Positions 27,554 to 56,050 of a DNA stretch of 64,000 nucleotides are shown piece by piece (position 1 is the first letter of the stretch; the number at the start of each line of letters is the position of its first letter). Made by a program: the position numbers and the translations under genes. The stretch spans positions 9,497,001 through 9,561,000 of the forward strand of contig NC_092671.1 in the NCBI RefSeq assembly GCF_964355755.1, in the 5' to 3' direction. Below the pieces are notes generated by a model. It had not been told where the DNA came from. It saw only the letters and a program-made list of their open reading frames with translations, and ran no database searches. Source of the stretch: Antedon mediterranea. Taxonomy: Eukaryota; Echinodermata; Crinoidea; Comatulida; Antedonidae.

Positions 27554-30500
27554 TTAGGAGTTCAACAATTTGAAACTATTTTTCAACAAGTTTAAGTCAA
27601 TGTTACTTAGAAACTGGCAATGTAATTGATCAGCCATAGAGAAGCTTTTACTATTTCCTAGAATCTCGTTGATCTTCTGTTCTGCGATGTAATTCACCAT
27701 CTTGGCACATTCCTCTGCATGCCATTTAGTGAGATACCCATCAAGGGCATTGTCTGACTCGGCTGCAACAAGGTCCTCCACAGAAGGACCCCACAACAGC
27801 AGCTGCAGGAATCCGATACTCTGTCTAGCACTTAATCGATCATTAGGATTTTTTCTCAGAAGCTCACCAGCAAGTTTCTGTAGCCCTAAAGAGTATCTGG
27901 ATTTCTTTGGAATCTTTGGAAAATCGCTTGGCTTGTAGTCTCTTATAATAAGATTTGTTTTCACACTAAATGGATTCGGCTCGTGAAGCATTTTATATAT
28001 CAGTATTCCAACATCGAACTCATTTGTCTTATTGACAATACTAGGTGACAGAAGTGTGTCATTAACACGTTCCGATTCATCTCTTTCGGCAAGATTAAGA
28101 TAGTCCACTACCAAATAATTGCCACCACCAGGAAGACCAGAGTCAATAAGAAGCAAGTTCTCCATCTTGACGGTTGAAAGACTAATGTTGTTATTTTCAA
28201 GATGCTGCAAGCCAGAAAAGAGCTGCAAAAGAACAGTTATAATTTCACCTTCATACTGTTCAGGCAAGAAATTATGCTTCTCTTTTGAATAACTAACCAA
28301 TTTTGAAACACTACTGACTGGCTGAACTGCCAAAGCTACTAATAAACTTTCTGACATCTCTTCTGATTGGTCGGCAGGCTCCGGACATTTTGATGGCGAT
28401 GGTTTTGGTCTAATCAGTTTGTTTGGTACAGAAGACTTGGAAGCTGAACAGACGTTGATGATATGAGGATGAGGAAGAAGTAGTTGTATTGACATGATGA
28501 AACTATACAGTGGATCCACCGTTTCAGGATCAGTGAACATCTGAAGTATGGAAAGTAAATAATAGTAAGAAATAGAATTAAATCATGTATTGAAAAAAAA
28601 CGAAAATAAATCTCTTTCTAGTATGACATGATGTGGGATTTGTCGACTTGGAACTGTAAGCAACTCAACTGCGTCTACATAAAGTGCTCCGAGCAACTGT
28701 CCTAAAGTCAAGGCAGCAGACACGACTAGTTTATGATCAAACACTGTGGTTCCTTTTTAACTTAGAATCATGGCGCCCACATTCGACATGAGTGTGATTA
28801 CGCAAATAGTTTCTTTTAGTTGAGTTGCTCTGAGTTCTACATATATTTACAAGTAAATTCATTTTTGACAGTTAATAGAGTAATAGCTCTGAACAATAAA
28901 CCTACCATTAAAGTGAAGTGCTTGTCTTTATTTGCAATTAATTCAGCTGGATAGAACCTTGCTTCAGAGCTGGTAAAACATGGATGATCACTGGTCAATT
29001 TAAAATCCCTTAAAACCACTTGGTCTAACCTCGGACAGCTTTCATGACTGTTCTGCCATGCTGATGAAATCTTTGACAATGTCAACATGTTTCTGTTATT
29101 GATCTTGGCAAAAAAAGGATCTAGTGGATTCAGACCATTTGATATCGGAGAAGATTCGGATTCCTCTGACAATGTTCTTAGTGGACTGGTACCTTGATCA
29201 ACCATTAGCTTTTGATTACGTGGAGTTGGCATTGGTTTTAATCTTGAAGGAATATCTGCGTCAGACAATAATTCATCAACATTTGCATACACGTTTTCAG
29301 TACTTTCTTGGGATTTCTCTTTATTTGTTGTTCCTGGGTCTAGAACTCTGACAGGTCTTTTGGGAGTTTTATTGTCGCCACTGTTATGGTTATCTTCAAG
29401 GTTCTTCATTGCTGATTTTAAAGGAGTAACTGGTCGGAAACTTGATGCTGAAGCACTATTGCTTCGTTTTCGTGGCAGAGGTTGTGGCCTATCAGCTTCA
29501 TCTTGAGAACTCTGATTAGGGGATGATTTGTCCCAATTTTCCTGGGAGAGGCAATTTTCTTGAGGAAGTTGTGGAGCCATACGCTTTTTAGTGTTCTCTA
29601 ATTGGGAAGGTAAATTCTCAAAAGCGGTTGTTCTATTTCTAAATCTTCTTGAAGGTTTTGTTGGCACTGGGAGTCCATTCCGTATTGGTCCTGCGGAAAA
29701 TAAAAGAATTATATTTATTTATAATAATATATGTTTAATGAAGTGGTGGGATGGGAAAACTATTTGTACTACAGTATATTGACCAATGTAGAGGTCATAG
29801 TGGGGGCATGACCATTATAAAAGAGAGATGCAATTTGCTTCACATCTAATTGATAAGACCAAAATAAAGGAATGGTTAGTATTATATGAAATGAACTGTT
29901 CTTTTTAGTTCAAAGACATGAAGAATACTTAATCTTACCCCAGTTTTCATAATCATCCATTGATCGATCCTTGATGCTGCTACTGACAGAGGTAAATGAA
30001 TGTGCCTTCTGGAGCTTAGCTGGCAATTTCTTCTTCCTTGTTTTAAATTCATCCAGTAACAATTGATCACTCTGTAAAACATCCGGTGGGCCTGGAGCTT
30101 TACGTTTGCTAAAGTTATTTGTTAATCGAGGCAAAGGCGGAGCATCAATTGGTGTGTTTGCATTAATATAAAACGTAGACAGACCATGTTCGGTAGCTAC
30201 TGCAGAATAATCAACGTGGCTACTTTCAATAACTGGAATTGGCTCGCCTTTATAAGCTTTAATTACTTCTAGTTTCTTCAAATTTTCTTCATGAGATACC
30301 GCTGCAATTTCATCCTCAGTCATATGTTTGTTCAATAACCAATCAGTTACACCTTTTGAATTAAATTCCCTTTCAGGACTACCATCTTCTTTTCTTCTAG
30401 AACGATTCTTTCGCCATGGTAGCTTGGACCATTTACCTTTACTTTCTCTAGTTACCGTAGGCTGTATTGAATCAATGGCATCAACTGGCAGAGTTATGGG

Positions 30501-32963
30501 TCTTTGTGGACTGGTAGTTGTACTTGGAGGTAAACCACTACGAGGTGGTGAATATGATGCTAGAACATCACTAACAGGATCTATTGGTTTCTTTTCAATA
30601 GATTTGTCATTAGGAGATTGGTCTAGACGATTCAGTACTGGTGCAGGTCTTTTTTTGCCATCCGTGTTCCTTTCTGGAGTCTTATCCCGAATTTTAGGGG
30701 CTTTAGTATTAACTGGTAATGTCTTGGATTTTGGTGATGAATGTGAATGACTTCCATTTTGTTTTGGAGGAGTCACTTTTCTACCAACTTCAAATGTTTT
30801 TATATTAGACTTTGGTATGTTCACTGGTTGCGAACTTTTCCTTTCTATATTCTGGTGAGGAGGAGGAGGTGGTGGTATTTTTGGCATTGTATCAGTAAAA
30901 TTCTCTACCTCTTTAACATTATTCAAAGAAAGTGATCTTCTTGATTTACTTTCTGGTGGAGGAGGTGGTGGAGCATTTCTCTTCTGTCTCAATTTAACTG
31001 GAGTTTCTCTGTTGTTTTCTGGATCCTCATCACTAAAATTGAAATTGTTAACAGAATTTTTGTTCTGAACAGGACTGTTTGATGTAGGATGAGTGATAGA
31101 TCTCTTTCTAGAACATGAATCTACCTTTTTATTATTCACTTTGACTTCTGCAGATTTTCTTGAACGATACTGCTTTTTAAATCCACTGCTCTCTCCACTA
31201 CTGGAAGTACTTTTTGACATATCTGAAAAATCAGATTCTGGAACAGAATCATAATTATGAACATTGTGTTCAGTATCAGTTGAAGTACAGCTACTGCTCC
31301 TCATAGGTTGTAGATACTCTTCATTTGGAGATTTAAATTCATTTTGTGTTGTACTGGAAGACGAAATCCTTTTAGAAGACTCACCTCCAGCATTTGAACC
31401 AATGTAAATTGGAACTCTATACAAGGATGAGTCCGAGTTTCTCTTTGCTGACTTTGGCAAGGCCTGTATTTCGTGATGAAGAATTGTTGGCAAGGTTGGT
31501 GAGTCATCAGCAGGTTCTTCATATTCTGGTTCATCTCCAGACGTCTGTCTGCCAAACTTCTTTTCCTTTACTGTATATGTTGAATCTACCAACGTAATCT
31601 TTTGTTGAAACTGTCTATGACCATTTTGAACATTTCTGTCAACCTTCTGGTAACCTTGCTTGTGTGATGTTCCCGGAACATCAGTGACAACATATGGTGC
31701 ACATTCTTGAACTTCAAGATCAACAACTCTGTAAGGTTGTACATTTGAAGATGAGGTACTGAAACTACTTCCACTGGAATGCAATGATAAATTAGACAAT
31801 GTGGAAGAATTTATAGAGACTCTGCTATCACATGGTGGTGGTGGCGGTGACTCTGTGTATCGAGACACTGAGCCATCAGCAGATATAATTTTTATTTCCC
31901 TTGAAGAAGACATATGGTTATTGTTTGTGGAGTTGTTACTATTTTCATGAATATTCATCCCAAAATATATTTCGGAACTTATTTGACTTCCTTTTACTTT
32001 TTTGTTTTGTGAGATATTTCCAGAGTTAATATCACCATTTAATAAAACCACATCGATTTCCTCAACCTTCTGTTCAGGTTCATACATTTCTGGATCTGAA
32101 TCATGTCGTTCTGATAAATCTGCAATTGTCGGTCGCTTATGGTCTCTACCAATGTTTCTAGGAAGCGTATCATGTTTTTCTATATTAAAAGCAGAGTGAG
32201 CAGCATTTGAAAGCAGTTGCGATTGTAAATCAGATTTTGCAGCAATAATTTCCTTTTTTCGTTTTAAATCAGTGTCCTTAGAATTTACTATTCCATCAGG
32301 TGAAGTCACATTTTCCGATGATGTGCTTGCAGATTCTTCTTCTTGTTTGTTCTCCTCTTTCAAAAATTTATTTACTCTTTTTAAACTTTTTCCAATACGC
32401 TGAAATTCAAGACTTGAATTTTCTTCTGGGCATGTGGAATTAGAATCATCACTTAATGTCAGACGACAAACCTCTTTTTTAGTAGGTGATATGGTTCCAT
32501 TTTCCGGAACTGAATCAGCTCTACGAATTCTTGGAGTAAATTTTCCATTAGTCTTTACCTCAGCACCTTTAGTAACATGAGTTTGACGTTTTAAGCGTGA
32601 ACTTGATTTTTCTTTAACCAGTGGTGGAGTTTTTTCTTTCTTGCTACTACGTCCATTTAAGTATGTTTCAGCATCATTTTGAAAACCATTTGCACTTGTA
32701 AAACCATTTTCATGTGATTCATTCACTTGGATATTGTTTACTGAAAAGGGTGTTAACTTGTTTACGATGGTTTTTTTAGGCGCTGTATCATTATTATCTC
32801 CAGTTTGTAGCTCAATTATCTTAACGTTAACTGGTTCCAATGTCTGGCTGATGATTGAGTGTTGCGAAAGTGGTTTGAAGCACTTAGCACAATAGTTATG
32901 CTTAAATTGGTGTTGTACGTAGTCCTTGCAAGCAATATTGGTAATCTTAATTTCCTCCTTCAT
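27554..32963 (-). CDS. PEAK-family pseudokinase scaffold (PEAK1/PRAG1 homologue), 3 coding exons
   Basis: Vertebrate PEAK proteins are catalytically dead kinase-like scaffolds that dimerise and recruit SH2, PTB and SH3 proteins at adhesions and the actin cytoskeleton. Exons 29939-32963, 28906-29690 and 27554-28540 join in frame to 1,598 aa (human PEAK1 about 1,746). Family marks: an N-terminal CAKCFKPLSQH like PEAK1 CKNCFKPKSLH; PYRVVDLEVQECAPYVV; polyproline SH3-type stretches (APPPPPPESKSRR, IPPPPPPHQN); tyrosine motifs such as EYEEP and ENVYANVDEL; and FKLTSDHPCF at the start of the kinase-like fold. The C-terminal fold runs from about 1235 and includes KMENLLL, DEFxxGILIYKMLHEPNPF in slightly altered form (NEFDVGILIYKM) and LLLWGPS, then the helices used for dimerisation. 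Key catalytic residues are absent (see findings). A nine-codon upstream ORF lies at about 33,003 in the 5' leader. PEAK1 and PRAG1 cannot be told apart here. Confidence 0.9.
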
Positions 32964-33151
32964 ATTTTCTATCCTGTCATTACCTGCTTAGTTTACAAAT
33001 CTCTTCCATTGTTTAATTCGCAAGAATTACTTCCTTCAAAATACACAATGATTGTTAAGACTCTGACGCTCACTCGTGATAAGATGACAACTCCAGGCTT
33101 CCTGAAATACTTTAACGACTTCTTGTTTTTATTGCCTAGATAATATTCGTC
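32964..33151 (-). other. 5' untranslated part of the first coding exon of the PEAK-family gene
   Basis: On the minus strand the sequence TTTTGTTTTATTCCCACAG immediately precedes 33,151 and is a near-ideal 3' splice site. The exon therefore starts at 33,151 with 188 bases of leader before the ATG at 32,963. This means at least one non-coding exon lies further upstream (higher coordinates). The frame upstream of the ATG contains stops, so translation starting at 32,963 is reasonable. Confidence 0.6.
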
Positions 33152-33720
33152 CTGTGGGAATAAAACAAAATCTGTAAGTAATGGTGAAACAAAGCTAGTA
33201 TATTAAAAGCATTAAACCTTTGAGAGAAACAATTAATAACCAAAGAAAACAAATTATTTAATCATTTACTTTTAGACAGAAAGAAAAAGACCGAAGAAGA
33301 CTGCATCGTTTTTTAATCTAATAAAAAATCAATATTTTTCTGAGAATCAATTGCTGAACAGGAAAGATAAGTCATGACTGAATTGTAAAGACTTTCAGTA
33401 AAATCACCTGAGCACTAAATAACACTAACACATACTGTACTGCATTATTCAGTAAAATTATACATATACAAGAATATTTAGCGTTAAGACATAAACAAAT
33501 AGGCCTGGATAAAAAAATGGATAAAAGATCAATTTACTGTATGATATTTAGTAGAAATGTTGTATAGTATCAGTATCAACATGACTAAAAAACAAACATA
33601 AATAATAGAAAATACAATCAATTTTGATTATTAAACAAAAACTTTGCTATTTAAGACATTTAGGTTTAGAGTCTAGAGTGTAAATTAAATTTAAACTATA
33701 GGCGATATACTGTAGTACAT

Positions 33721-33900
33721 TACTGTAGATATTCAATTCAATTCAATTCAAAGTAACATTTATTTTCTTCAAAATAAAACAGTCAACAAAATGGTGTAAA
33801 GAAAGGTAATATGATTGAAGAAGGCATGATCAAAAAAGCAAAAAGCTTGTGACAGACATGCCTAAACAAAGATTAGATAAAAACAACACGTCATAATAAT
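33721..33900 (-). mobile_element. LINE 3' end with TTGAA repeats
   Basis: On the minus strand the segment ends AATAAATGTTACTTTGAATT and then repeats TTGAA about four times, the kind of short tandem tail seen at LINE 3' ends. The upstream body was not identified. Confidence 0.45.
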
Positions 33901-34977
33901 AATTATTAATGAAAATATTAATACTTTGATACCCAAGCCTATATTTAAATTAAATAAATTTCAACGTTATGAACAAATACTCATATAAATGTAGTACTAG
34001 AGCTCTTGTAACTGTGTTTATAAGGAACTACCGACATAAAAGTTAGTCACATGCTTATTAATATTAAGCACCACCAATAAGCACCGGAGACTTAACATAA
34101 TACCATATCTGAACTTAATACTACCACACTATAATGTCTGTAGATATATCCTGCTGTCACACACATGCTGAAATGAATCACAGCAAATCTAACCATAGTG
34201 GAAAAAAAATAAACTTTTATTTATTAAATCTAAAATATTAAATAATATAATAATATTTACCTGTCTATACATTAAACACCATGTCCTTACAGTGGCAATA
34301 CCAAAATGAAAGCAAAACTTATGAGTCTTATAATTACAGATTACACAATTCACTTTACACTATTGATGCTCACTGGACTATGAAGGTGCTCAAACTGAAT
34401 TTTTGTATTCTATTCTCGCCCCCATAATGATTCATATACAGTAATTGGGAAAGTCCCTGCTTAATCATGCTTGCAGTTATTTTCTTATACATTGAACTTC
34501 GACCCTGAAAAGATCAAGCTGAATCAACAAGATGATGACATGCCACATTATCCTTTATTAGGATTTATATTGATTGGTCAATGACACTACTGTAAAACAT
34601 CTATAGCAAAAACAAATATTAGTTTCAGTAGTGTATTAAAGTGTATTATTAATCAATTTTGCATTGTTGTTTGAGAATAAAGAAAAACTGAGAGAAATGT
34701 CATTTTATTATCGAAAAAAAAGGAAAACCAAATTTAATGGTAAAGTAATTTTGTTTATTATATTTAAATATATGCAAATGAAAAACATTTTACCAGGAAA
34801 ATGTATGTTCTTCCTAAATTGTTAACATACTATGGTACACAATAGTTGAACAGCTCTAGCAAAAGAAAGTTATGCAGGATTATAGTCCAATGATTGTTTG
34901 ATGGGCTGTGACATATCAACAACTGATAATGAAGTCATAGCCACTCAATTGACTATTATTTTTAATTAATAATTATA

Positions 34978-35013
34978 AAAAGAATATATATAAAGAATAT
35001 ATATATATATATA
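34978..35013. repeat. (AT)n microsatellite
   Basis: AAAGAATATATATA is followed by a second AAAGAATATATATATATATA, giving a duplicated AT-rich microsatellite. Confidence 0.8.
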
Positions 35014-36533
35014 TTTAGTACTGTCTAGATACATTTTATTTTTTAAATTATTTGTTGGCAAACATACAAAACATCATGCAATTAAATTTTCCAGTGACGT
35101 ATTTAATGGTATTAGTAGCGTAATATATAGGTACTGTCCAAACAGATTTATCTATTATCTTATACCCTCCTCCTGGTTTGGTTAATGGGGGAAATTCCCT
35201 TTTGAGCTCAGTGAAAAGAAATCCTCTAAAATTGTTTGTTTGTTATATTATTGTATCAATAAATACATTTCTATGACAACTAAAAGTTTATTATCTGACA
35301 ACATTGACAGGGAACTACAATATAAATCCAGCATACTACATTGTTGAATGTAAGGAAAACCAAAGCGATAGTAAACTGGTTTATTTTTGGCATTTAAAAT
35401 CAATGTATGACCAGATATATTTTGCCAATTACGGTCTGTTCAATAGCTGATTCAAGCTCATAATTATTAGGCCTCCATTTTTAATATCTAATATTTAAAA
35501 GTGTTTAATTATTCATTTATATAATAAAATGTATTTGCCTCTGCAGTACAGTATCCCGGATATTTAAAAGAATTAGCTAGGTAGACAAATATTTACCCAA
35601 TAAACAGGGCTAAAGATAATATATATAACCTTTTACCATATTTTGACAATGACAGTGAAAAATTAATATTACATAATAAGTAAAAGAGGGGCGACCAGTT
35701 AATGGAGGATTTACATTATGTGCATTTCCCAAAACAATATTTTGTCATTCTTTATCTCATATCCTTTCCTTAAAAATGCATAGTAACCTTAAATAAAGAA
35801 ATATTGACGAACTACATCGAACGAAAACAAATCCTTGAACTAAACAATATGAACTCACAGGAATAGAAGGTGTTTGGATTGTTGGAAACCATTTAAATGC
35901 AGAAACAATTGGTTCTTTAAAATTTACTTATTGACTTTTTAATTGCAGAACAGTATAACATTACCAGAAAAAAAATGTTTATTTTATACTCATCTGATAC
36001 TAGCAGATAACTTATATAAGCTAAGTCTGATTCGAGATTTAGGAAGTCGAAAGTGTTAAAGAGTTAAAACACTGGCGCTAGGTCAGGATTGAACCCTGGA
36101 TTCCAAATTTTGCAGAATTGCTGAATAAATAAAAATGTTATTTTTGATTATATATTCAAATAAATAGTTACTATGTTTAAAAATGAATGTTGACAGAAAC
36201 TGCATGTTTAGTAAAAGCGCATATAAATTTGGTTGGTGAATAGAAATAACAAAGAAGTCCTGCCTAAAATTTGTTTATAATCTCCTATGAATGGTATGTG
36301 GATTTTCTTGGCTATACAAACAACCAACATGTTAAGGTTTTTTGTTTGAGAAGTATTTGTTTTTAATAGTTCACTTCAAACAAATTCCCATCTGTAAAAG
36401 TCAGAGAGAGATATGGCGTAACAAATGCTTTGTCATTCTTAAGTCTTGTTTTTAGTCTTTTTAAATGTCAGTCAGGAAAAAACCACATGTTGACATCAGC
36501 CAAAGAACAGATCACAGATGTTTAAACAACAGT

Positions 36534-36683
36534 ACAGGGCTGTACGCAAGATTTTATTTGGGTTGGTGCGGATTAATTTATTTTGGACCATTTTCATAAT
36601 GTAATGTATAATACACTACAGATTTATTTTAAGACCCTATACCTTTTGCAATTTGGCGCACCCGTCTGAGTACGGCCCTGCAG
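36534..36683. mobile_element. possible hAT-type MITE with CAGGGC termini (about 150 bp)
   Basis: Left CAGGGCTGTACGCAAG and right GAGTACGGCCCTG are inverted repeats. The eight bases outside (CAACAGTA and CAGTAGTA) agree at six positions, which would fit an aged 8-bp target duplication, typical of hAT elements. Confidence 0.45.
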
Positions 36684-37973
36684 TAGTAGGCCTAGATATG
36701 GTGCATTTTGAAAGAATTGAAAAGGTAGTACAGTTGAACAGCACAGACTTTTTCTGGTCAACATTTAACTAGTAACAAAGTCTATTGTGAACAGGGGTCG
36801 TCCGGGTTAAACAACTTCCACTTGTCAAGTTAAACACTAACCTTGGATCTGTAAAATTAACAAGACTATACCGTTTACTATACAGTTGTATAGTTTTGCA
36901 AAGTCACAATATCTCACGCGAGTTTGAACATTATTATACTGCCATTAAATATTATATGTAATGGTAACATATTATATTGCAAATAATAATTCAATGCAAG
37001 GAAAAAAAATTGTATGTAAAATATATCAAACCATTAAAAGAAATGGTCAAGCAAGCATAATTCCTGTTTTAATATGCTAAATTATTTTTCTTTAAATTGA
37101 CTGACAGCACCTACTCGCAATTATAGTGTACATTAGTGCAATTGTGACTTGTGCTGGATGAAATATACATTGCCTAGACCAATTGATAAATGGGCAAAGA
37201 GAAGATAAACAAATACAGTAGGCCTACAGAACAAAATAATTGCATGTTACGAAACATGGCTCAAAACACTACATCACTGTACATCTCTACAGGTTTTGCA
37301 AGATACTGGAAGTGGATAGTCCCTTGAAACCATGGCGGCCTTCTTTATGTTACCACTGAGTTTAATCAGCTATCTAAATAAGATAGATTAGTTACCATGG
37401 AAACTATAAACATAATGAATATATATCCAGTTAAAATCAATACTATGTTCAGAAATAAAGAGTAAACATGATTTGAGTGCAGTGACCTAAACAAAAGTGA
37501 AAAACAAAAATGTTGTATAAATTAGTTTGATTAAACTCAGAGAAGGGAACAGAAGTACACTGGCTTATTAAATAATAACACCTTTATATTGCTAATTGTA
37601 GGTACAAATCACTCATCTTTAATATTTGACATAGATATCTGACATAATAAACTATTATTTTAAGTTTTACACAGTACAGTATAAACAAATTGTGTTTGTA
37701 TTCATAGTCCATTGGGTTTTATACAATTCTTCAACATAAAGTCGTCATCTATTGTGCATCAACATTGACAATAAAAACATCTAAATTCATTGGTCTGCAG
37801 AGAGCTTACAAACAAGACTATTAGCGTTTAGATCTTCACCGAGATATTGATTTTTCTATGTGTGTATACTTTTCTGGAAATAAAAGGCTATTCAATGAAG
37901 TCTATGAATATAAAATTGACATTTAAAACTTGAAGGAAATAAAAAGGAACACTCGTCTCATACTTACAGTATT

Positions 37974-38133
37974 AAGCTCTGTCTACACTATCAAACTAGT
38001 GTGATGTTCCTAAATATGGTAGTGATATGCCCAGAAATATGGTAGTACCGGTAGTGATATGACATCATCATGTCCATATACGGGCACATCACATTTATTT
38101 GTCACATAAAGTTTGATAGTGTAGACAGAGCTT
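37974..38133. mobile_element. MITE, family A (termini AAGCTCTGTCTACACTATCA), best-preserved type copy
   Basis: A 160-bp element whose left end AAGCTCTGTCTACACTATCA is the exact reverse complement of its right end TGATAGTGTAGACAGAGCTT. Internally it carries repeated ATGGTAGTGATATG-type words and GACATCATCATGTCCATATA. Without a coding region it must be mobilised by another element's transposase, as MITEs are. Confidence 0.85.
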
Positions 38134-39748
38134 GAGACTTGTTGCGCCATTACCCATGGTTTCCTGGTGACATATTTGCCAAATTGATTAAATAAATTAA
38201 CAAAATTACTGCCAAAAAAAATTACAATCTAATCTTACCAGTTCTCAGTGGAGAAAATCCCGTTTAAATGTGATTTATTACAATGGTTATTACATGGTAA
38301 TTACTACTAAGTCTATATCCCTAAAGTTATTAACCTACTGTATTATAAAGTCAAACACAACATTACCTGCAATAGACATATACACTTCCTTTTACCAAAC
38401 AGGAAGATAAGGTGTACATTTTTAAATTCAACAGATAGGAAATTACATATTTTACAATGGTAACAATATAATTTTTTTTTGCTAATACAAGAAGATACGA
38501 TGTACCATGTCCGTACTGTGATGACGTACCACCTGTGTGGAAGATACTGTTAGTTAGTTCCTTATATGGAAGTAAAATAATCATGAAGTGTTAAACCTAA
38601 CAATAGGATGTTGTAGTAATTAAAAATGTCCTGTTTTCAATACAGTATACAACAAATATTCCTTTCTAATGTTCCACATTTTAATTTAAACTTTAAGCAA
38701 GGCAATGAAAAACTCAAATACAATTTTGAGAAAGACCAAGAACTTGGTGGATAACTAAACATTTTTAATTTTATAGAAAGTATTGCACAAAAATTTGTTT
38801 ATAGTTTTAAAGGTGTAATTATTGAAATAATAATTTCTAAAAAAGTTTCCTTTATTTATTCAATCAAAATTTTTTGATATTTAGTTATACTGTAGATAAA
38901 TAGTTGTAGATAAAACGTGGAATATATTTATATCAAAGTGTTCAGTAAACGACAGATTATTAGGGCTTCACCTTGATGAATTCTTTTTCCTTAATTCCTT
39001 CCCATACACATCTTCCTTCCGTGCATTGATCACGACAATTACTTTTGGCATTTCATCAAATCTATGCAATAATTACATTCACATATCACGGTTAATAATT
39101 TCATAAACCTGATATTTGTCTCTAGTTCAAGGTTTCATAAAAATTATAATACTTTTGGTGATTTTGGGGGGATGACCGCTCTGCAACTGGTCAGGAAATG
39201 ATCACTAGTCTATGGCTGTAAAATTATGATGGCTCTACTGTACGGAAATAAAATGATGGACACAAGGTCACTTTTTAAATGAACTATATAAATATAATTA
39301 TGGTAGTGATGACGAGCACGATTCTATTTAACAACTAGTTGATAGATAGCTGAGCAAACTCATAATATGAAAATATAGCCAAAATATCCAAAGATGTTAC
39401 ATACTGTAAGCTGTCTAGTCAAAAATTCCAATACAATCGAAGGTAAAAACATGCACAAATAATATAGCAATGCTTCCACCTATGGCTGATGCAAATCAGC
39501 CAATATCATAGATTAAAGGATTTTGATACAGCCAGTCTACAGTAATACATCTAATCTTTGACATTTATGTAGCTATACAGTATAGCTATACATTTACATT
39601 TTTTTAATTCATAAATAAAATCAATACACGGGTATAATTCTGTAAAAATAGTAAATCTTTTACCACATATGCCACTGAAATTATTATTTTTTTCTGTAAT
39701 ATTAAAAGCTGTTGGATGCATGCATTATTCTTGTCGTGCACAAGTTCA

Positions 39749-39804
39749 AAAATGATAAAAATCAATCAAAAATGATAAAAATCAATCAAAAATGACAAAA
39801 ATTC
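39749..39804 (+). repeat. short tandem repeat, unit AAAAATGATAAAAATCAATC
   Basis: About two and a half copies of a 20-bp unit, the last with GACAAAAATTC in place of the consensus. Confidence 0.75.
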
Positions 39805-41199: not shown

Positions 41200-41345
41200 C
41201 TTTCACTTGCACTGACGAAGGGCTACTGTAGTGTTGCCCAAAAGCTCTGCAGATATTTCTAGCTGTTTTGTGTTTTGATTTAGCTTTTTGCTTATTTTAT
41301 TTTGTATCTCCATTTTATTTTGTAGATCCAGCCACTGATACCCAC
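41200..41345 (+). mobile_element. probable relic of a retroelement end with hammerhead-like core
   Basis: CACTGACGAAGGGC, a short loop, GCCC and AAAAGCTCTGC give the CUGANGA box and stem II of a hammerhead; the GAAA box reads AAAA. The following T-rich stretch (GCTTATTTTATTTTGTATCT) resembles the ends of Penelope-like elements. No RT remains nearby. Confidence 0.4.
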
Positions 41346-42643: not shown

Positions 42644-42662
42644 CACACACACACACACACAC
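42644..42662 (+). repeat. (CA)n microsatellite
   Basis: About nine CA dinucleotides in the non-coding stretch upstream of the PEAK gene. Confidence 0.9.
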
Positions 42663-45600: not shown

Positions 45601-45979
45601 TTTGGATTCGTTGTAGACATGGGGTTAAAAAGTCACACACCGCCTAAAATTACTCATCTAAACTAACATGTACTGTACCTTTTAGTTTTAGATATTGTAC
45701 AATACTACATAAAACTAACCATCTAGAAGTCAGCATTAATAAGTTGATATCATTTGATAAACTTGTATGGTAAACTTACCAGACATTACTAACCTCTATC
45801 CTATATAATTTTTATTAATAATTAATGAATGCCTACCGTGTACCAGTATGAGTCATGTAAATAATATTGAAGATAAACGGATGTAAAACTGCACCATTTT
45901 CCGCCAATCTATATAACATTATACAGATATATAGATGACAAATTTCGTTTTTGTAAAAGCACAAGTTAACGGAGTACTT

Positions 45980-46030
45980 ACTCGAACGTTTCGATCTCTA
46001 TCAGAGATCCTTCTCAACTGACTGCGGAGT
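45980..46030 (-). ncRNA. hammerhead-like fold in the PLE pLTR (3' copy; repeated at 48,671-48,721)
   Basis: On the element strand, a hairpin GATCTC-TGATA-GAGATC is followed directly by GAAAC, then a GAGTA/TACTC hairpin, CGTT and AACT; upstream sits AGTT, able to pair with AACT. This is the order of a hammerhead ribozyme (stem I, core, stem II, GAAA, stem III, GUH). The core box reads TTGAGAA instead of CUGANGA, with changes at C3 and at the catalytic G8, so activity is doubtful. PLE pLTRs are known to carry hammerhead motifs. Confidence 0.45.
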
Positions 46031-46031
46031 G

Positions 46032-48605
46032 TTAATGCAGCTTGGTCATTCTTGACGTCATCTGTTGATGACGTTGTACGCCTCTGGTTGTAGGTTGGAG
46101 GTTGTGCGGGGCTCGGCCAGGTGATGTGTCTATCAAATCATTGTACAAATGCGAGAGTTCGTGGGCTCCAGTGTCCCGGTTCATGGTCTTCTCTTTATTT
46201 CTCCTTATATGTAATGATTCTCTAATCTGTCTGTCTTTGCGTTTAGGCTCTTTGGTTAAGATGGTAGCCTCCCAGTTCGGTACATGATTGTGTTTTATGA
46301 CATGTTCTGTAATGGCAGATTTGTGTATGATCGAAGATGTGGATGTTCTGGAGGCCCTAGTCATTACTCCCCCCGTGTTTGTTGTAACATCTTTTTTGTG
46401 ATCATTAATTCGTGTTTGTAATGCCCTCCCTGTTTCCCCAATGTAAACTTGTGGACAGTTGCGGCAGGTGACTTCGTAGATTACTCCACATGTATCCATC
46501 TTCTCGATTTTATCTTTTGGGTGGACGAGGCTATTCTTGATTTTATTTTGGGGTAGGAAATAGGTTCCGACATTGTGATAGGAGAGAGTGCGTCGTATTC
46601 TTTCTGCCATTCCTTTTACATAGGGGATTCCTATGCTACCTCGCATCTTGATCTTTTCCTTCTGTGGTTCGTGTCCTTTGTTCTTTTTTCTTTTTCGGTT
46701 TTCCATAACTCTCTGGAAGGACCACTCTGGATACTGGCAGTTGTGTAACGCTTTCTTGATGTTATCCATCTCAACTTTCCTCAAATCCATATCTCCCACT
46801 ACCTTCTCAGCTCTGTCCACAAGCGTGTTTATAAGCCCCAGTTTGTGTTCGAGTGGATGATGTGAGTTGAAATGTAAATATTGGTCTGTGTGAGTGGGCT
46901 TCCGATAGACTGAGGTGGTAACTGTTCCATTGTCATTGAGTGTGATGAGCATGTCCAGGAAAGGTATTGTGTTGTTTGTCATCGATTCTGTGGTGAACTT
47001 GATATTGTCAGTTATATCGATGTTATTAAGATGTGTGTTAAATGTATGTACTGTACCTATGGGGATGATAGCTAATACATCATCAACGTATCGTTTCCAA
47101 TACACAGGCTTGATGTTAGTGGGTGCCGTGTTTATGGCTTGATGTTCGAGCCACTCTAGATACAAGTTCGCCAATATAGGACTTATTGGGCTTCCCATAG
47201 CAATGCCTTGTATTTGCCTATAAATGTTACCATTGAACGAGAAATAGGTTTTGTTCACAATTAAACCGAGGAGCTCCATTATGTCTGTCACATGTAGTTT
47301 AGTTCTATCCAGAAGTGTCGGATCTGTTGTTAGGCGATTTTCGACAACTTTGAGGGCCTCTTCTACTGGTGTTTTTGTAAACAGAGATACTACGTCAAAC
47401 GAGACAAATGTTTCACTTGGTTTGACTATTATTTCTTTTAGTTCACTCGCCAACTCTCCTGAGTAAGTTACATGATGTTCTGTGTTTCCGACAAGCGGAC
47501 CCAGGATTTTGGTGAGGAATTGTGCAACGGTGTAAAAAACGGTGTTGATGTTATCTACTATAGGTCTTAATGGCCAATTTGGTTTATGTATCTTCGGAAG
47601 ACAATACAACCTAGGTACAATTTCAGCCGTGGGAAACAGCCATTCTTTCTCTCTGTAGTTGATTTTCTTTTCTTTGAACAACCTGCCTATGATGTTGACC
47701 ACTTTTCGTTTATAGTTTTGTGTTGGATTACGTTTTAGCAGTTCGTAAACATTAGTGTCGCTCACCATGGTTCCCACTTTATCTTTGTAATCATTAGTAT
47801 TTAGGATGACAGTAGATCTACCTTTATCCGCTGGGAGAATAAGAATAGATTTATCTTTCTTCAAGTTGTTTATGGCCTTTCGTTCTTTGGGGGTTAAATT
47901 TGAAGGTGGTAGAGTGGTAGATTTTACAATAGCTACAATTTTACTGCGAACGGTGTCTTGTTCTTCCAGGGGGACGAGATCAGCCGCTTTTTCAGCCGCT
48001 ACTATGAGATCGTCAATGGGCATGGATCGTGGGCTCGCCGCATAGTTCAATTCCCTTTGTAATGCTGATATTTCGTCCTCACTAACCAACTTACTAGACA
48101 GATTTACCACCCATTTTTCTCTTAAGATCTTACCGGATAAATCCTGTTCTTGATGTAAATCTCTAGCTGCGTTTTCTGCTTTGTTTTTCCACCACAACAG
48201 TTTGTTTTGTTGTCGTGATCGGCATTTTAAGAATTCCGCTTCACACACTTTGTTTACGTGATTACATACATTGGTGATGTCCCCTCCGTTGGGAATTAGC
48301 GATACGATTTCCTCATTTAAATCTTTCTTTTTGCCTTCTAACTGTGTGATTTTGTTGGTGGTGATTCTTATTCTCTCACGTAAAAGCTGTCTTTCTGCAT
48401 GTTTTATTATTTCCTCTGCTTTAGACGATTTGATCGGTCGATATAATTTCAGGCTCGGAGGGGTAATGTCCAACCGCTTACAATGAAGGGAGAATACCCG
48501 GTGATTTCTCTGCCGTGAAATTTTCTTCGCGATATTTTCCTGTTTGCGTACGATGTTGATGGTTTCTTGACCATATTTTTCTCTTAAATCTTGAAAGAAT
48601 TTCAT
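46032..48605 (-). CDS. Penelope-like element polyprotein: reverse transcriptase plus GIY-YIG endonuclease
   Basis: A single open frame of 857 aa that copies the element RNA into DNA at a nicked target. An N-terminal basic, helical region (about 1-230) precedes the RT: ILILPADKGRSTVIL near 255, LPKIHKP and PLRPIV near 336-349, FDVVSLFTKTP near 403, GIAMGSPISPILANLYLE near 467 and the catalytic YVDD near 506, then FLDMLI. The GIY-YIG nuclease follows: CGVIYEVTCRNC near 706, VYIGETGRALQTRINDH near 720 with the conserved arginine, and a likely catalytic glutamate in IRESLHI near 794. The last residues are encoded inside the 3' pLTR, and the start codon lies just inside the inverted repeat. No frameshift or stop is seen, so it may encode an active protein. 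I cannot assign the PLE clade (Neptune, Poseidon, Penelope) by eye. Confidence 0.93.
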   Translation of the reverse strand: MKFFQDLREKYGQETINIVRKQENIAKKISRQRNHRVFSLHCKRLDITPPSLKLYRPIKSSKAEEIIKHAERQLLRERIRITTNKITQLEGKKKDLNEEIVSLIPNGGDITNVCNHVNKVCEAEFLKCRSRQQNKLLWWKNKAENAARDLHQEQDLSGKILREKWVVNLSSKLVSEDEISALQRELNYAASPRSMPIDDLIVAAEKAADLVPLEEQDTVRSKIVAIVKSTTLPPSNLTPKERKAINNLKKDKSILILPADKGRSTVILNTNDYKDKVGTMVSDTNVYELLKRNPTQNYKRKVVNIIGRLFKEKKINYREKEWLFPTAEIVPRLYCLPKIHKPNWPLRPIVDNINTVFYTVAQFLTKILGPLVGNTEHHVTYSGELASELKEIIVKPSETFVSFDVVSLFTKTPVEEALKVVENRLTTDPTLLDRTKLHVTDIMELLGLIVNKTYFSFNGNIYRQIQGIAMGSPISPILANLYLEWLEHQAINTAPTNIKPVYWKRYVDDVLAIIPIGTVHTFNTHLNNIDITDNIKFTTESMTNNTIPFLDMLITLNDNGTVTTSVYRKPTHTDQYLHFNSHHPLEHKLGLINTLVDRAEKVVGDMDLRKVEMDNIKKALHNCQYPEWSFQRVMENRKRKKNKGHEPQKEKIKMRGSIGIPYVKGMAERIRRTLSYHNVGTYFLPQNKIKNSLVHPKDKIEKMDTCGVIYEVTCRNCPQVYIGETGRALQTRINDHKKDVTTNTGGVMTRASRTSTSSIIHKSAITEHVIKHNHVPNWEATILTKEPKRKDRQIRESLHIRRNKEKTMNRDTGAHELSHLYNDLIDTSPGRAPHNLQPTTRGVQRHQQMTSRMTKLH

Positions 48606-49753
48606 TTAGCTTCGATTTTGTATAGATGACAAATTTCGTTTTTGTAAAAGCACAAGTTAACGGAGTACTTACTCGAACGTTTCGATCTCTATCAGAGATC
48701 CTTCTCAACTGACTGCGGAGTGTTAATGCAGCTTGGTCATTCTTGACGTCATCTGTTGATGACGTTGTACGCCTCTGGTTGTAGGTACAACCAGAGGCGT
48801 ACAACGTCATCAACAGATGACGTCAAGAATGACCAAGCTGCATTAACACTCCGCAGTCAGTTGAGAAGGATCTCTGATAGAGATCGAAACGTTCGAGTAA
48901 GTACTCCGTTAACTTGTGCTTTTACAAAAACGAAATTTGTCATCTATACAAAATCGAAGCTAAATGAAATTCTTTCAAGATATACAGATATAGTTGGCAT
49001 ATCCAAAAATAATTGTCACAAATTGTAAACTGCTTAATAACTTGAAAAAATTGAATATTTGTAATGACATACTGTATAATTGTCAACAAAAATAAAAATA
49101 ATTGACAATGGTGATAACATATGGAGATCTTAAACAGCACTTTGTGAGATCAATAATATTGAATAAAACCATAAATAATAAACCTTATCATTTGATAGAT
49201 GATTGTAAATAAAAATGGAATTTATTAGTTACCCTTGCATGGCCTACAATACATCAAATATCCCAATTTTTCTCGGTTGGTTTAGTAGATATATAAAACT
49301 ACCTTGTAGTTTTATATATAATGATGATGATAATTATTGTTGCTATTAACCCTATTCAAGTTGGCTTCTTTAAAAACTCTCTTGCACTTGTGAAACGTTC
49401 AATATTTTAATATGTAACTAGTATTGTTTTTTTTGTTTTTTTTATGTTAAAAGTAAGTAATACTAAAACATTGGTGAGTCATTATCAAAGATGAGGAAGT
49501 ATAGTTTATTTGATATTCTAAAACAGAGCAATTAGACATAAACTTGTAATCAAAGTAAATTGTGGATGTTCTATTATTAATTCATGGCTAACAAATTAAT
49601 AACTAGGTTACAGATCAATTATACTGTAATAATGATATACAACAAATTGGTAACTTAGCCTTCTATTAATTTTCATACAGCCTTCAATCCCTTTATAATC
49701 TTTTAAGACTTATATCATCATTCATTTCATCCATTAACACCCATAATATTCTA

Positions 49754-49916
49754 AAGCTCTTTCTACACTATCAGACTTTATGTTACAAAAAAATGTGATG
49801 TGCCCATATATGGACATGATGATGTCATATTAGTACCATATTAAAGCATACCACTACCATATTTCGGCACATCACACTTTTTTTGTCGGACCAGTTTGAT
49901 AGTGTAGACAGAGCTT
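49754..49916. mobile_element. MITE, family A, flanked by TA on both sides
   Basis: A 163-bp copy with AAGCTCTTTCTACACTATCA at the left and TGATAGTGTAGACAGAGCTT at the right. TA lies directly outside both ends, which would fit a TA target duplication of the Tc1/mariner type. Other copies do not all show it. Confidence 0.8.
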
Positions 49917-50009
49917 TAGCTTGTACTTCTTTTTATTGGCCTAATTTTGTTTGGTTAAATATTGAAATTATAAACTGTTATTCCCCGGATGAACCACCGG
50001 GCCACTGTA

Positions 50010-50319
50010 GCTTTAGATTCAAACTACACTATCAATATCATTGAACTGGTTTGACGACAAAATGTCATGTTCCCATAATGGTAGTGATATGCCCAAATAT
50101 GGGCAAGACACAACTTTGAGCTGATTACTACCGTAGCTGCATTATGGGAGTATGTTTCCAAAAAAATGACTGGGGTAATGATGTTCAGCACTTAGAGGTT
50201 TCACAACATTAGGGCGGCCCTATATAAATCCAGGATATTATTATTATAGTGATATTATTATATGTCCATTAATTTCACATTTTTTTGTCACATAAAATGT
50301 GATAGTGTAGACAGAGCTT
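50010..50319. mobile_element. MITE, family A, interrupted by a nested SINE 3' fragment
   Basis: Eroded left end (ACTACACTATCA near 50,023) and good right end (GATAGTGTAGACAGAGCTT). The element is about 310 bp instead of 150 because about 125 bp of SINE sequence (50,117-50,243) sits inside it, so the MITE is the older insertion. Confidence 0.7.
50117..50243 (+). mobile_element. 5'-truncated SINE copy nested in a family-A MITE
   Basis: GCTGATTACTACCGTAGCTG, GGGAGTATGTTTCC and ATGACTGGGGTAATGATG all recur in the same order in the minus-strand reading of the 55,493 SINE. The tail GGCCCTATATAAAT is followed by ATT repeats. Confidence 0.7.
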
Positions 50320-51258
50320 AAGACCATGTGCTGTTGAATAAGAATAAAAATGATAGTTTAATTGTCCGACACTGACACAACTGATAACTTGGCCAAGACA
50401 TGGCAGCTTTTTGTTTTTGGCATTGTACAATTTTTATTTCAAATTGCAATCCCATCCACTGTGACAATCATCATGTTTCCGTGTTATTGAATCCCTTGCA
50501 TTTGAGAACATTAACATACAATAATAGAAGAGGACTAAGGTTAAAAGGTGATAATGGGTCAACAATAGACCTGGAAATAAAATAACAAACATAATAAATC
50601 CAATATAGATATATATATTGGATAGCCATCAGTCAGAGAGTTTTGAGTTCAACTTTATTTACATGACTACTTAAATTAAGTTGAGGATGGGAAGGATGGG
50701 GAGAGGGGAAAGGGATGAGTGAAGATGCTAGACAATATTTTTTTATGGACCCACTCCGGTACCACAAGTTAGTATTTTCTTCATGTAGGCCTAGGCTAAC
50801 TTTTTAGATCGGTAAATGCAGGGAGTTGTAAGGTAAATGTATTATTACTATTAATAATAAAAGTTTGAACATGAACGAAATATATGGTTTAGCCCTAATA
50901 ATAAATTAGAGTGTGAAGTGTGAACTAACTACTTAATTTTTGTTGTTTTAATGAATCCAGCAAACCTGTAAAAAAACAAGATCATTTCAAAGTCAAGCCC
51001 AGGCCGCTACTATCGACTGCCAGGATTAAGTAAGCCAACTAAACCTTCACTTGACCACCAAGTCTCGGAAAGGCAAATTCACCTGTGCGCAGGCCCCCAT
51101 CGATTCCGCTCTCTGATAATCCCACTACTCACTCAGCTCAGCCTGGGCTGACTGGATCACCCATATCCATTCATGTAAAACGATAAGGAATCACAACTCC
51201 TACTCGGTATTATAATTAAAACAATACGCTACTTTATATTATAGCTGTTCGGCCTTAC

Positions 51259-51350
51259 CTTTAGTTCACGATATTCTTCTTCAGAATAAGAAATGAAACA
51301 TCAGACATCTACTACCAACCACCCACCTCGTTGTTGCTTAACGACTGTTT
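51259..51350 (-). other. candidate first, non-coding exon of the PEAK-family gene
   Basis: The minus strand shows CTAAAG|GTAAGG, a strong donor, with its exon end at 51,259. It lies about 18 kb upstream of the PEAK acceptor at 33,151, and no competing gene was seen between them. The exon's outer limit is a guess. If correct, the PEAK promoter faces the HMG20 gene across roughly 1 kb. A CACGTG E-box sits just outside, near 51,418. Confidence 0.3.
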
Positions 51351-52496
51351 ACTTGTCTGCTAAAAAAGTAAGTAGAAGTATTCATTGATGATTGGCCAGC
51401 TGATCAATGTTATTATCACGTGAACAAATAAGCATGGTACAGTACTTATCTAATGTAGATCTCAATATTCTTTTGGCAATATAGTTCAGCAATATATTAT
51501 TACACTACATACATTAAATAGCACATAATATTCAAATACAAATTGTATAGACTATAAACTAACAATTTGTGGGTTTTTGTCTTATCAATTAAGCCTTTGT
51601 TTGAGCATGGCATATGAGGGCGGATGTCATTGAAAATGTTCTCCTTTGAACAATATTTTTTTTATGAAACCAGTGCACTACGTATTCGAAAAATCGATAA
51701 GGTGTTTGTAAATCAAATGAAACATTACATTCTTTTTTTTTCGTTGTAGATGGATTAATTTTTATTATTAGTTAAAAATAGGATGAGAACAACAAAGAGC
51801 GTCAGTTCGCGTTCTGCCTGTGAGAACATAGTAACATATAATAAAAATATTATAATGAACGCAATAAAGAAAAAAAGTACGTACTTAGCAAAGATCTTAT
51901 AATCTATAGTATAAGATCTTTGGTACTTAGCAAATTAGTGGTGGCGCTGTTTATGAATGCCCCACGCTCGAGATTTATTGTGGCCGAGTAGCTTGTGTTT
52001 TTGTTTACACACGAAGAACAAACAAAGTTGCACAGCATTTAGCTTGTAAAAGTAAGCTTAATATAACAATAAACTATTTACTGGTGCATTTATTATTATG
52101 AATATTAGAGCTACTTTTAGAAATATTAATGTTTAGTTTAGGTGAAATGAAGTAGATGAAAACAGGAGAAAGAAACTGAGCTTGCTAGTAGGCTAGCCAA
52201 CCATCACATGCACACGACGTCCAGACAGAGTCGGGAAGGCAGCCAACAATGAAGAAAGAATTCATCCAGCCTAGCTAGCCTAGGTGTATTTCCCCATGTA
52301 TTTCATTCACTTTACACTAATTAGCTAAGAAGAACCAGTCAGAAAAAAACTTAAAATGTCGGTATGGGTAAAACTATTTATAAAATATGATTATTTTCCC
52401 ATAGGCTACATTATTTTATTATTGATATTATTATTATTATTATGTAGGCCCTATTCTTGTTTTTAGTAGGTTTACCACAAATATAAATAAAGAACT

Positions 52497-55400
52497 ATGG
52501 ACCTGAGTGATGGGAACTCAAATCAAGGCTTGATGTCCAACGCGGGATCGTCTTCTCTTTTCAGCATAGCTGACCTGGATGAAATATCGAAAACGACATC
52601 TGATCTGGGCGTTGATACAAGGTGATTTGTAAGATTAATTAGCATAACAACAATATAGAGGTTAAAGTAATATTTTTATTTACCATACTCTTTAAATACT
52701 TTAGTGGGAAAATTGTCAATTCAGAAATATAATATGCAAGTCAAGTGTATGCATTTTATGTTTAATTGTTACTTTTTGTAATAATTTTTTGGGCCCAGAG
52801 AAGTACAGACAACTATTAATAACTATTAATTCTTTTATTTGCAGTTTTGGAACTTCTCATAGACATAATGTGGGGGCTTCTTTGCCTCAGTCACTCACAC
52901 ATCCAGAAATGATTACAGATATTTCACAAGGTATGTTATCAATAATTAATGCAATTGGAATGATGTTGAAAAGAACTACAAAGGAATGAGAAATTCACAG
53001 AAAGAGAAAAGCTGCGATTTCAGCCGAGACTTAAAGAGAGTGACAGATGTATGTAATTCATACAACAAATAACATTTTATTTTTAAATACCAAACAAGAG
53101 AAATGCAATAATATTTGTTTTCTTTTTAAAGTCGAATTACTGCAGCAAGATTCAACATCTCAAGATATTCCAGATACAAGCAAGGAAGATGTAAGACTTT
53201 TAATTTTAAATATTTTAATTTAGATTTAATTGACATGATTTTGAAAACACACATCATCAATGGTGTCTAAAGCTCTGTCTACACTATATACTGTCTACAC
53301 TGTATGTGACAAAAAATGCCCATTGATGTGCCCATACATGGACATGATGATGTCATATCACTACCATATTTGGTAGTTTGATAGATAGATAGACAGAGCT
53401 TAAGATTATATTTCATGTACTGTATACATAACATTGATGATTGAAAAACAATGTTGAGATGGTTGATAATACTGTTATTATATTATCAATATCATATCTT
53501 TATTTGGTAGAGTTTTACCAAAGCAAAAGGTGGATGGTCCAAGGGTAAGAAACGAAAGAAACAGATGAGGGATGTAAACGCACCTAAAGCACCTCTAACT
53601 GGCTACGTCCGTTTCATGAATGAAAGACGGGAGCAAGTGAGGCAAGAGAATCCCCAGGTGGCATTTGCTGAAATCATCAAGATGCTGGGTGCTGAATGGA
53701 GTAAAATGAGTTCAGTAGAGAAACAGGTATAGAGATCCAAATGCTTGTGATATGTAATGACCTATGAACTAAGAAAGTTTAGTTAATTCATTGTGTGACC
53801 TGTATGTAGGGATTTGTTATTCACCCTCCCTGATTTCTGAATCTATGCATTCATTCCTCTAACTCCTGTCCAAAGTTACCTAAAATAACTAAGCACGTCT
53901 GAACAGTTTCAAAACCAACCTGAAGACATTGCTATTCGCTGATGTACTCGCACGTTGTTAATGCACACCATAAGCTCCACATGGGTGAGGGATACCGGCG
54001 CTATATAAGTTTTCATTTATTATTATTATTAAGTCATAGTTGAAAATGGAAAAGATTTACCTTGCCTACTAAACCCCTGATTCCTGTACATAAATTTAAT
54101 ATCTTTGCAACAAAACAAATAATATTTTATCAAAACCTAAACTGAACAAACATCAAAAACTTTAGAAATACCTAGATGAAGCTGACCAAGACAAAGAACG
54201 GTACATGAAGGAGTTAGAACAGTACCAGCAAACTGAAGCATACAAACTGTTCACTAAAAAACAACAAGAACGTAAGAAGAAAGAGATGATGGACGAGACC
54301 GATGGGCATCTTAATGGATTAGAGGTAAATATTATTGGGGCTCTCGCAACTAATGGTTTAATGGTTTTAAATTTGTATAGCGCAAAATAAAAATAGTCTA
54401 TGTGCTGATTAACACAAGTGCAAAAAGAAAGAAAGTGTTATTGTTGAATAAACCAGGATCAAGCCCAACAAACCGAACAAACTGACCAAGAAACAGAAAA
54501 AAGTCACACTGTTACACTAACTTGTCAAGATAAGCTAGCTATTTATTTATTATAATGATGTGAGCATCTGACTATCCTGACTAAGAATGTGAAGAATTGT
54601 TTCCATGGTCAAAACAGCATCATAAGGACATCACTCTAAAGCCCAAATCCTACTGGACTTGACCTACTAATTGAAATTGTTACTGAACCCTTACAGTAGT
54701 TACAACTGTAAAATCTTTTGACCATTTCTTCAAATTCTCAAAAAGATGCACCATGTAAAGTAAATTTAATTACTATTACTGTATTTGTTACATTTTTTAG
54801 TACAATGATGACAACAAAATAGACACAGAACTCTCAACATTTGATGTCCCCATCTTTACTGAAGAATTTCTTAATTATAATAAAAGTAAGTAATGCATTT
54901 AAAAAATGGAAAACTCTATATATAAAGTCTTTCTCTAGTCATAGCTACTCCAAAATCAAAACACATTACTGTACATACATGACATAATTAAATAGAATCA
55001 GACTGGCATGTGAGGTGCATGGGTTTGAGACCTGTCTGTCCTTAGGCAAGATGCTTTAATCTCATTGCCTCGTCCTCTAGATGGGATGTAAGCTGGTTTT
55101 GTGTACATAACTTGGTACAATAGTAAGGGATCATCGTTTTAGCCGATGCACTGTGGCTGTAGTAATCGTAAATTTTCTCAATCGACGACAATTAATTACA
55201 TTTTTTTTCTTTTAGTCCGGGAAAATGAGCTTCGTCAGCTACGCAAGTCAATCACAGAATACGAGGAGCAGAATGCCATTCTGCAGAAACACATTGATAA
55301 CATGAGGTCGGCTATAGAGAAGCTAGAAACTGAGACTGTACAACAACGAAATAACCAGATGGCACTAAGACAACATCTGGAGAACTGGCGCACTGTTCTA

Positions 55401-56050
55401 ACTTCACATTTCTCTACAATTCCTTTACCAGGTACTTTGAATTATATTTTGAATGTTGAAAATGTATAGCATTGAAGAAAATAAAGAAACTATAATAATA
55501 GTAATAATAATAGTTCATTTTTATATAGCACATATAAGCAAGCTCTCAATGCGCTGCACACATCATTACCCCGGTCATTTTTTAAACATACTCCCATAAT
55601 AATGCAGCTAGTAATCAGCGCAAAGTTAGGTCTTGATATAACCGGTACCCATTTTATACACCTGGGTGGAGAGAGGCAAATGTAAGTAAAGTGTCTTGCC
55701 TAAGGATACAAGCAATAGTTGGATTCGAACCACGATCTCACATTTAATAATCCACGTCCAACACACTGCGCCACACGCCTTACATTATGTTAATTGCTGA
55801 AATAAAGTTTATTATTATTATATTATAATCCATACTCATACAAAATAAAGAAAAGAAAAATGTATATTCTTCAGCATAAATTTCATCTGGTTTCTTTTGT
55901 TTTGCAGGTACTAATGAGGTCCCCACAATCCACACCATCGACTCGTACATGACAAAGTTACATCAACAGATTCTAGACTCGCCACAGCAAAATGAAGGAC
56001 TAATCTCAAGCGTTAGAGAGATAGTAGCTAAACTCGATCTACAAAGGTGA
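52497..56050 (+). CDS. HMG20A/HMG20B homologue (iBRAF/BRAF35), HMG-box plus coiled coil, 8 coding exons
   Basis: HMG20 proteins bind DNA non-specifically through one HMG box. HMG20B is a subunit of LSD1-CoREST, and HMG20A can replace or oppose it at neuronal genes. Exons: 52497-52621, 52845-52930, 53132-53190, 53511-53726, 54166-54324, 54801-54885, 55216-55431, 55908-56050; phases agree, 362 aa (human HMG20A about 347). The HMG box spans about 112-183 ([52 protein letters not shown]). Then come the family signature [14 protein letters not shown] near 235, a long coiled coil [10 protein letters not shown] onward (about 247-305) and the conserved C-terminus [14 protein letters not shown] / VREIVAKLD. 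It is equidistant by eye from the two vertebrate paralogues. A 5' leader exon probably precedes: an acceptor TTGTTTTTAG ends near 52,466 and a donor lies at 52,361. Confidence 0.93.
53270..53401. mobile_element. MITE, family A, in the HMG20 intron 3
   Basis: A 132-bp copy; the left tip contains a partial duplication (CTGTCTACACTATATACTGTCTACACTGT) shown here only by its ends: CTGTCTACACTATA at 53,274 and CTGTCTACACTGTA about 15 bases later. The right end GATAGATAGATAGACAGAGCTT has a small GATA expansion. Confidence 0.7.
53865..54031 (+). mobile_element. 3' end of a non-LTR retrotransposon (LINE), truncated
   Basis: A short frame encodes [14 protein letters not shown], typical of the extreme C-terminus of CR1/L2-type reverse transcriptases, then a stop, then GGCGCTATATAAGTTTTC and (ATT)n. 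The rest of the LINE is absent, as expected for 5' truncation. Confidence 0.6.
54985..55130 (+). mobile_element. SINE fragment sharing the body of the 55,493 SINE
   Basis: The degenerate B box GGTTTGAGACC is followed by CCTTAGGCAAGATGCTTTAA and ATTGCCTC, matching the body of the neighbouring SINE on the opposite strand. The 3' tail is not obvious. Confidence 0.6.
55493..55779 (-). mobile_element. tRNA-derived SINE, full length, in the last HMG20 intron
   Basis: Read on the minus strand it begins GGCGTGTGGCGCAGTGTGTT (A-box-like TGGCGCAGTGTG), has a perfect B box GGTTCGAATCC about 40 bases on, a body with CCTTAGGCAAGACACTTTAC, and a tail GTGCTATATAAA followed by ATT repeats. It is antisense to HMG20. 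Confidence 0.8.

Follow-up and report, generated by a model that had tools for sequence, protein, structure and literature searches.

Head-to-head PEAK and HMG20 genes in Antedon mediterranea: a probably ancient microsyntenic pair with a candidate shared promoter

PEAK1 and HMG20A appear side by side in several vertebrate gene lists. The available part of a cattle gene table places PEAK1, HMG20A and LINGO1 in a single 63-kb row of chromosome 21 (32283208-32346053; PMC9737016), a grouping that is firmer than its coordinates since the rows of this table may be shifted (PEAK1 and SCAPER also appear at 4.05-4.75 Mb). In the excerpts at hand for other species, a 17.8-Mb interval of pig chromosome 7 opens with PEAK1, HMG20A and LINGO1 (PMC10741191), chicken chromosome 10 carries HMG20A, PEAK1, TSPAN3 and SCAPER consecutively, and also ETFA, SNUPN, SIN3A and NEIL1 (PMC10976558), and a preprint list of human genes near ETFA has both PEAK1 and HMG20A among them (PMC13192633). 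The four lists, in the parts available, give the grouping of the genes, and orientation is stated in none of them. For human, we take PEAK1 and HMG20A to lie head to head on 15q24 with a gap of less than 1 kb.

Two broader classes of gene pairs are also relevant. Irimia et al. 2012 reportedly described ancient metazoan microsyntenic pairs kept together by cis-regulatory constraint; these are likewise two unrelated genes adjacent over long evolutionary time, and for PEAK-HMG20 a shared enhancer is at most a possibility. In head-to-head pairs with bidirectional promoters the two start sites are separated by less than 1 kb, according to the available text of one study (PMC4089025). Such pairs share with the locus described below its divergent layout, in which a single candidate promoter notch lies in the gap. 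In the accessible main text of papers naming both PEAK1 and HMG20A, supplements being outside the scope of the search, we found no statement on a shared or bidirectional promoter.

The PEAK-HMG20 pair in A. mediterranea

We analysed a stretch of 64,000 nucleotides (hereafter the window; C2:9497001-9561000) from a genome of 354 Mb in 18 contigs. Just as at the vertebrate locus (human 15q24, cattle chromosome 21, pig chromosome 7, chicken chromosome 10), members of the same two families are neighbours here; unlike the vertebrate locus, the A. mediterranea pair has a DEAH-box helicase and a ZIP transporter as neighbours. The gene models are the following:

27554-28540, minus strand: last PEAK coding exon, with the pseudokinase C-lobe, the C-terminal part and the stop codon (domain matches, in-frame splice)
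28906-29690, minus strand: PEAK coding exon 2, with the linker and the start of the pseudokinase domain (in-frame splice and alignment)
29939-33151, minus strand: PEAK exon holding the start codon (32963), with an acceptor just before 33151 (splice signal, reading frame)
52497-56050, plus strand: HMG20 coding region, eight coding exons, stop codon at 56048-56050
52497-52621, 52845-52930, 53132-53190 and 53511-53726, plus strand: HMG20 coding exons 1-4
54166-54324, 54801-54885, 55216-55431 and 55908-56050, plus strand: HMG20 coding exons 5-8

The initial annotation had proposed that a minus-strand PEAK gene and a plus-strand HMG20 gene are adjacent and face away from each other within 27554-56050. 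The in-frame gene models confirmed this arrangement, and the interval fits the coding extents of both genes. The two are divergent neighbours with start codons 19.5 kb apart, and for each of them no clear second copy was found in the genome.

On the minus strand, the coding exons 32963-29939, 29690-28906 and 28540-27554 splice in frame into a protein of 1598 aa, with a short upstream ORF ahead of the start codon. When the C-terminal 424 aa were compared with the PDB, the best structures were those of PRAG1 (5ve6, E 9.2e-40; 6ewx, 2.9e-39) and PEAK1 (6bhc, 9.2e-37), and the next-best family was PINK1 at E 1.3e-9. Judged by its predicted product, the gene is a member of the PEAK (NKF3) pseudokinase family, its domain being closest to PEAK1/PRAG1. 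In the alignment to PRAG1 the catalytic residues are degenerate, with LST, lacking the Asp, opposite the HRD of PRAG1. Of the two sides on which the dimerisation helices of this family flank the domain, the alignment covers the C-terminal one, where it runs through to the end of PRAG1. The protein encoded by the last exon had one match in the genome, which is itself.

On the plus strand, the eight exons encode a product of 362 aa whose best solved structure is 2crj, at E 6.7e-31 against 1e-18 for HMGB1, that is, ~12 orders better. We take 2crj to be the HMG box of HMG20B, and on that basis the predicted protein carries a single HMG box of HMG20 type. The PDB title of the entry reads SWI/SNF-related subfamily E member, nothing more. 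A genome search with HMG20 gave 13 matches, 7 within the gene itself and 6 elsewhere at 30-44% identity. HMG20 proteins bind chromatin-complex partners through a C-terminal coiled coil; for the exon at 55216-55431 all domain matches were below the cut-off, several of them to coiled-coil families. According to the available text of one paper (PMC9884267), HMG20A belongs to NuRD and further chromatin complexes and has a part in the development of head and heart.

The window also holds a ZIP zinc transporter gene at ~1.7-9 kb on the plus strand and, at ~13-25 kb on the minus strand, a gene for a DEAH-box-type helicase in which one exon encodes an OB fold; both precede PEAK, and the helicase beside PEAK is presumably DHX29.

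The interval between the two genes

To describe the region separating both coding parts we distinguished these features:

33152-51258, minus strand: predicted PEAK 5' intron, with a length of 18.1 kb should 51258 be the donor (acceptor 33151, donor score, CpG)
45833-48984, minus strand: young Penelope-like element with reverse transcriptase and GIY-YIG (domains, repeat copies)
51259-51605, minus strand: candidate PEAK non-coding first exon with a guessed 5' limit (donor 51258, or else 51326 or 51082)
51606-52067, no strand assigned: CpG-retaining notch, candidate shared divergent promoter (segmentation, CpG counts, single copy)

A third gene inside this gap, which would have spoken against the proposed adjacency, was searched for and rejected on scans that included 10 of the 26 listed open stretches. 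Rfam families had no match anywhere in the window, a scan with bacterial settings found no tRNA genes between PEAK and HMG20, and Pfam gave nothing above the cut-off for these 10 stretches (one match at E 0.06, below its cut-off), a search that genes made of short exons could escape. The sole protein-coding item found between PEAK and HMG20 was the Penelope-like reverse transcriptase (46032-48605).

In invertebrate genomes, methylation that covers gene bodies and spares start regions would leave CpG depleted in the former and retained in the latter. Outside the young transposon, the notch is the one CpG-retaining stretch between PEAK and HMG20: 15 of its 64 C lie in CpG (0.234), compared with 115 of 1928 (0.060) in the PEAK intron minus the transposon, and the best of 894 overlapping windows around the notch reached a fraction of 0.165. 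The gene bodies are depleted, with fractions of 0.060 in the helicase gene and 0.082 in HMG20. Since the notch was picked by segmentation, the binomial value of 4e-6 is optimistic. Besides the notch and the transposon, the same two-state segmentation marked the helicase gene at its 5' end (25048-25882), as well as CpG-rich segments inside HMG20 (55118-55356) and downstream of it (57379-57956), and thus the CpG mark is not promoter-specific. The contrast between notch and gene bodies would fit an unmethylated start region between methylated gene bodies.

The stretch 50900-52480 occurs once in the genome; the notch was considered as a transposon and rejected as such, its genome matches being itself and one 35-base stray. 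A motif scan found one GC box and one GCGTG in the notch and additionally one E-box, one CCAAT, one NRF1 half-site and two TATA-like sites in 50900-52480, and no CRE, ETS, YY1 or full NRF1 sites in that region. The initial annotation had suggested a shared promoter near 51.3-52.4 kb. The notch, at 51.6-52.1 kb, lies inside that interval and could plausibly be a shared divergent promoter for PEAK and HMG20. Together with the donor at 51258 it may put the two start sites within 1 kb of each other; the donor at 41942, however, outscores 51258. In the 184 kb around the window, long CpG-depleted gene stretches alternate with CpG-retaining ones, e.g., most of 71-80 and 86-124 kb.

Because a strong acceptor lies just before 33151, PEAK has at least one non-coding exon upstream. 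Among minus-strand donors between 33.2 and 52.5 kb the top score was that of 41942 (8.2), followed by 51258 (7.5), while 45779 scored 7.0; the scoring matrix is a rough one, and the real PEAK and HMG20 donors score only 1.4-5.3 on it. Three of the 28 donors scoring at least 3 fall in 51.0-52.1 kb against ~1.6 expected, which is a small excess. The stretch 50901-51605, where the candidate first exon would lie, is hardly CpG-enriched (14/151). The start sites and the PEAK first exon given here are guesses, and the donor evidence is weak. On the HMG20 side, no donor scoring at least 4 was found in 51.8-52.5 kb, so that this stretch gives no sign of an upstream HMG20 exon.

The Penelope-like element carries a reverse transcriptase and a GIY-YIG domain that is just under the cut-off, and ends on one side in a 199-nt inverted repeat (48585-48783/48786-48984). 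Scoring 40 of 219 candidate places in the genome gave 70 matches, with copies on C1-C11. In the same 40 places there were 10 rows covering the full query, including the element itself, of which 8 were at 99-100% identity. These near-identical full-length copies indicated that the insertion is young, and ~3.1 kb of the predicted PEAK 5' intron is therefore padding. The 18-kb 5' intron that had been attributed to PEAK thus stands in part: acceptor 33151 and donor 51258 fit it, but the donor at 41942 scores higher and ~3.1 kb of its length is the young transposon. As for the family itself, at least 7 full-length rows, the element included, print 100% identity (again for 40 of the 219 places), and a short match on the opposite strand is seen at an end of many copies.

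Conservation and retention of the pair

The same adjacency of PEAK and HMG20 in lineages as distant as A. mediterranea and the cattle, pig and chicken of the available lists bears out the shared microsynteny that had been predicted, and we consider that this microsynteny is real and probably ancient, as judged from gene order. Retention across all deuterostomes, as the initial annotation had it, would go beyond this comparison with amniotes. We then located members of the vertebrate block by family matches, without orthology trees. The pair lies at 9.52-9.55 Mb of contig C2. The SCAPER and SNUPN family matches are both on C11, that of ETFA is on C1, and that of SIN3 is on C2 at 39.0 Mb, 29.5 Mb from PEAK-HMG20. 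Tetraspanins had 34 matches, those on C2 being confined to 0.51 Mb, and TSPAN3 was not assignable among them, and NEIL1 had no match in the genome with a query that matched no control genome either. Hence, for the four located families (of six tried), none lies within 29 Mb of the pair and one is on its contig, and this scatter indicates that the pair is more stable than the located part of its vertebrate neighbourhood.

We also surveyed 60 kb on each side, ranking 2202 open frames by codon use and inspecting the top 90. Seven flank or window frames were compared with Pfam and five matched: tau/MAP repeats, cation-efflux, LRR, an MFS transporter and an HYR domain, the cation-efflux and LRR matches being below the cut-off. 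None of the five matched frames belongs to the vertebrate block as known, and a larger conserved block was rejected on these frames, which identify a minority of the flanking exons.

We consider it reasonably probable that PEAK-HMG20 is an old divergent pair that predates the split from vertebrates and is tied by a shared divergent promoter at the notch. Both genes would start on either side of this compact, CpG-retaining and probably unmethylated stretch at ~51.6-52.1 kb, which would work as one divergent promoter, HMG20 being read to the right and PEAK to the left, through its long 5' intron. With start sites this close, a break separating them would harm one or both promoters, and we propose that the pair was retained because of this damage. 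Co-regulation or shared enhancers are a possible addition that would not be required; a divergent promoter whose loss hurts both genes would be the simplest reason for retention. The comparison behind this explanation is one of amniote gene lists with one genome. That the two genes became neighbours independently in the A. mediterranea lineage and in vertebrates is very improbable: assuming 20,000 genes in random order, the odds that the gene behind the PEAK 5' end is HMG20 and divergent are ~1 in 40,000, and the window holds about three gene adjacencies, which argues against coincidence even though two lineages only were compared and the pair was chosen because it was familiar. A pair adjacent in the bilaterian ancestor may also have remained unbroken by luck, with neither shared promoter function nor co-regulation. 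A short gap between start sites would seldom be broken even in the absence of selection, and ancient microsynteny is widespread: according to the available part of one study (PMC8851819), 256 blocks arose in the bilaterian ancestor, where shuffled genomes gave 45, 48 or 56. We nevertheless regard retention by luck as rather unlikely, given that the order was kept with 19.5 kb between the coding parts and a 3-kb transposon landing there, while none of the four other located block genes stayed within 29 Mb.

Another explanation is that one gene has its enhancers within or past its neighbour, for example in the long PEAK 5' intron, where the initial annotation had suggested enhancers for both; the genes would then be inseparable and the promoter gap incidental. 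In human retina two elements are linked to PEAK1. We take one to lie in the PEAK1 5' region and the other beyond HMG20A, that is, on both sides of HMG20A, positions which would suit such a block. The available text places these elements at chr15:77664198-77665218 and chr15:77873253-77874263 and names hg19 four times, hg38 never; against a block, its links are correlations within 250 kb, the variant is not a PEAK1 expression variant and HMG20A is unnamed (PMC10680294). Support also comes from mouse islets, where the accessible parts of two papers (PMC12974444, PMC12262311) treat Peak1/Hmg20a as a single locus that is associated with diabetes and has active enhancers bound by CREB. Both data sets are mammalian, with no direct bearing on the A. 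mediterranea genome, and ~3.1 kb of the A. mediterranea intron is a young insertion; we judge interleaved enhancers as the sole tie to be quite unlikely. CDC5L is reported at the PEAK1 promoter in the available text of a further paper, in which HMG20A is unnamed.

Returning to the shared divergent promoter, a broader and rather unlikely version of it would have the pair, formed before the vertebrate split, keep one CpG-retaining promoter together with enhancers interleaved between the PEAK intron and HMG20. A cytoskeletal scaffold and a factor of chromatin complexes would have been tied together from then on. If true, the diabetes locus Peak1/Hmg20a of mammals would be among the descendants of an ancestral regulatory unit. 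Two-gene linkages that outlast their scattered surroundings point to inseparable regulation. In the present case the partners are a focal-adhesion pseudokinase and a chromatin factor, the latter connected with development and diabetes. The ~0.5 kb candidate promoter and the intron are directly testable for shared control, both in an invertebrate and in mammals.

Other features around the pair

On C11, only 2.3 kb separate the snurportin match from a weak tetraspanin hit that is below the cut-off (C11:2546256-2548849), with SCAPER 0.8 Mb off (C11:3359036); this SNUPN/tetraspanin/SCAPER grouping may be a further relic of the block at vertebrate 15q24. In the left flank, ~59.7-59.3 kb from the window start, one open frame holds four stretches of tau/MAP-type tubulin-binding repeats (E 1.5e-49). 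A repeated element, found e.g. at 49750-50323 and 53270-53400, has inverted ends that are roughly AGCTCTGTCTACACTATCA. Motifs like these would fit an echinoderm. Lastly, TAGGCCTA occurs 64 times in 184 kb, compared with ~1.7 occurrences expected by base composition.
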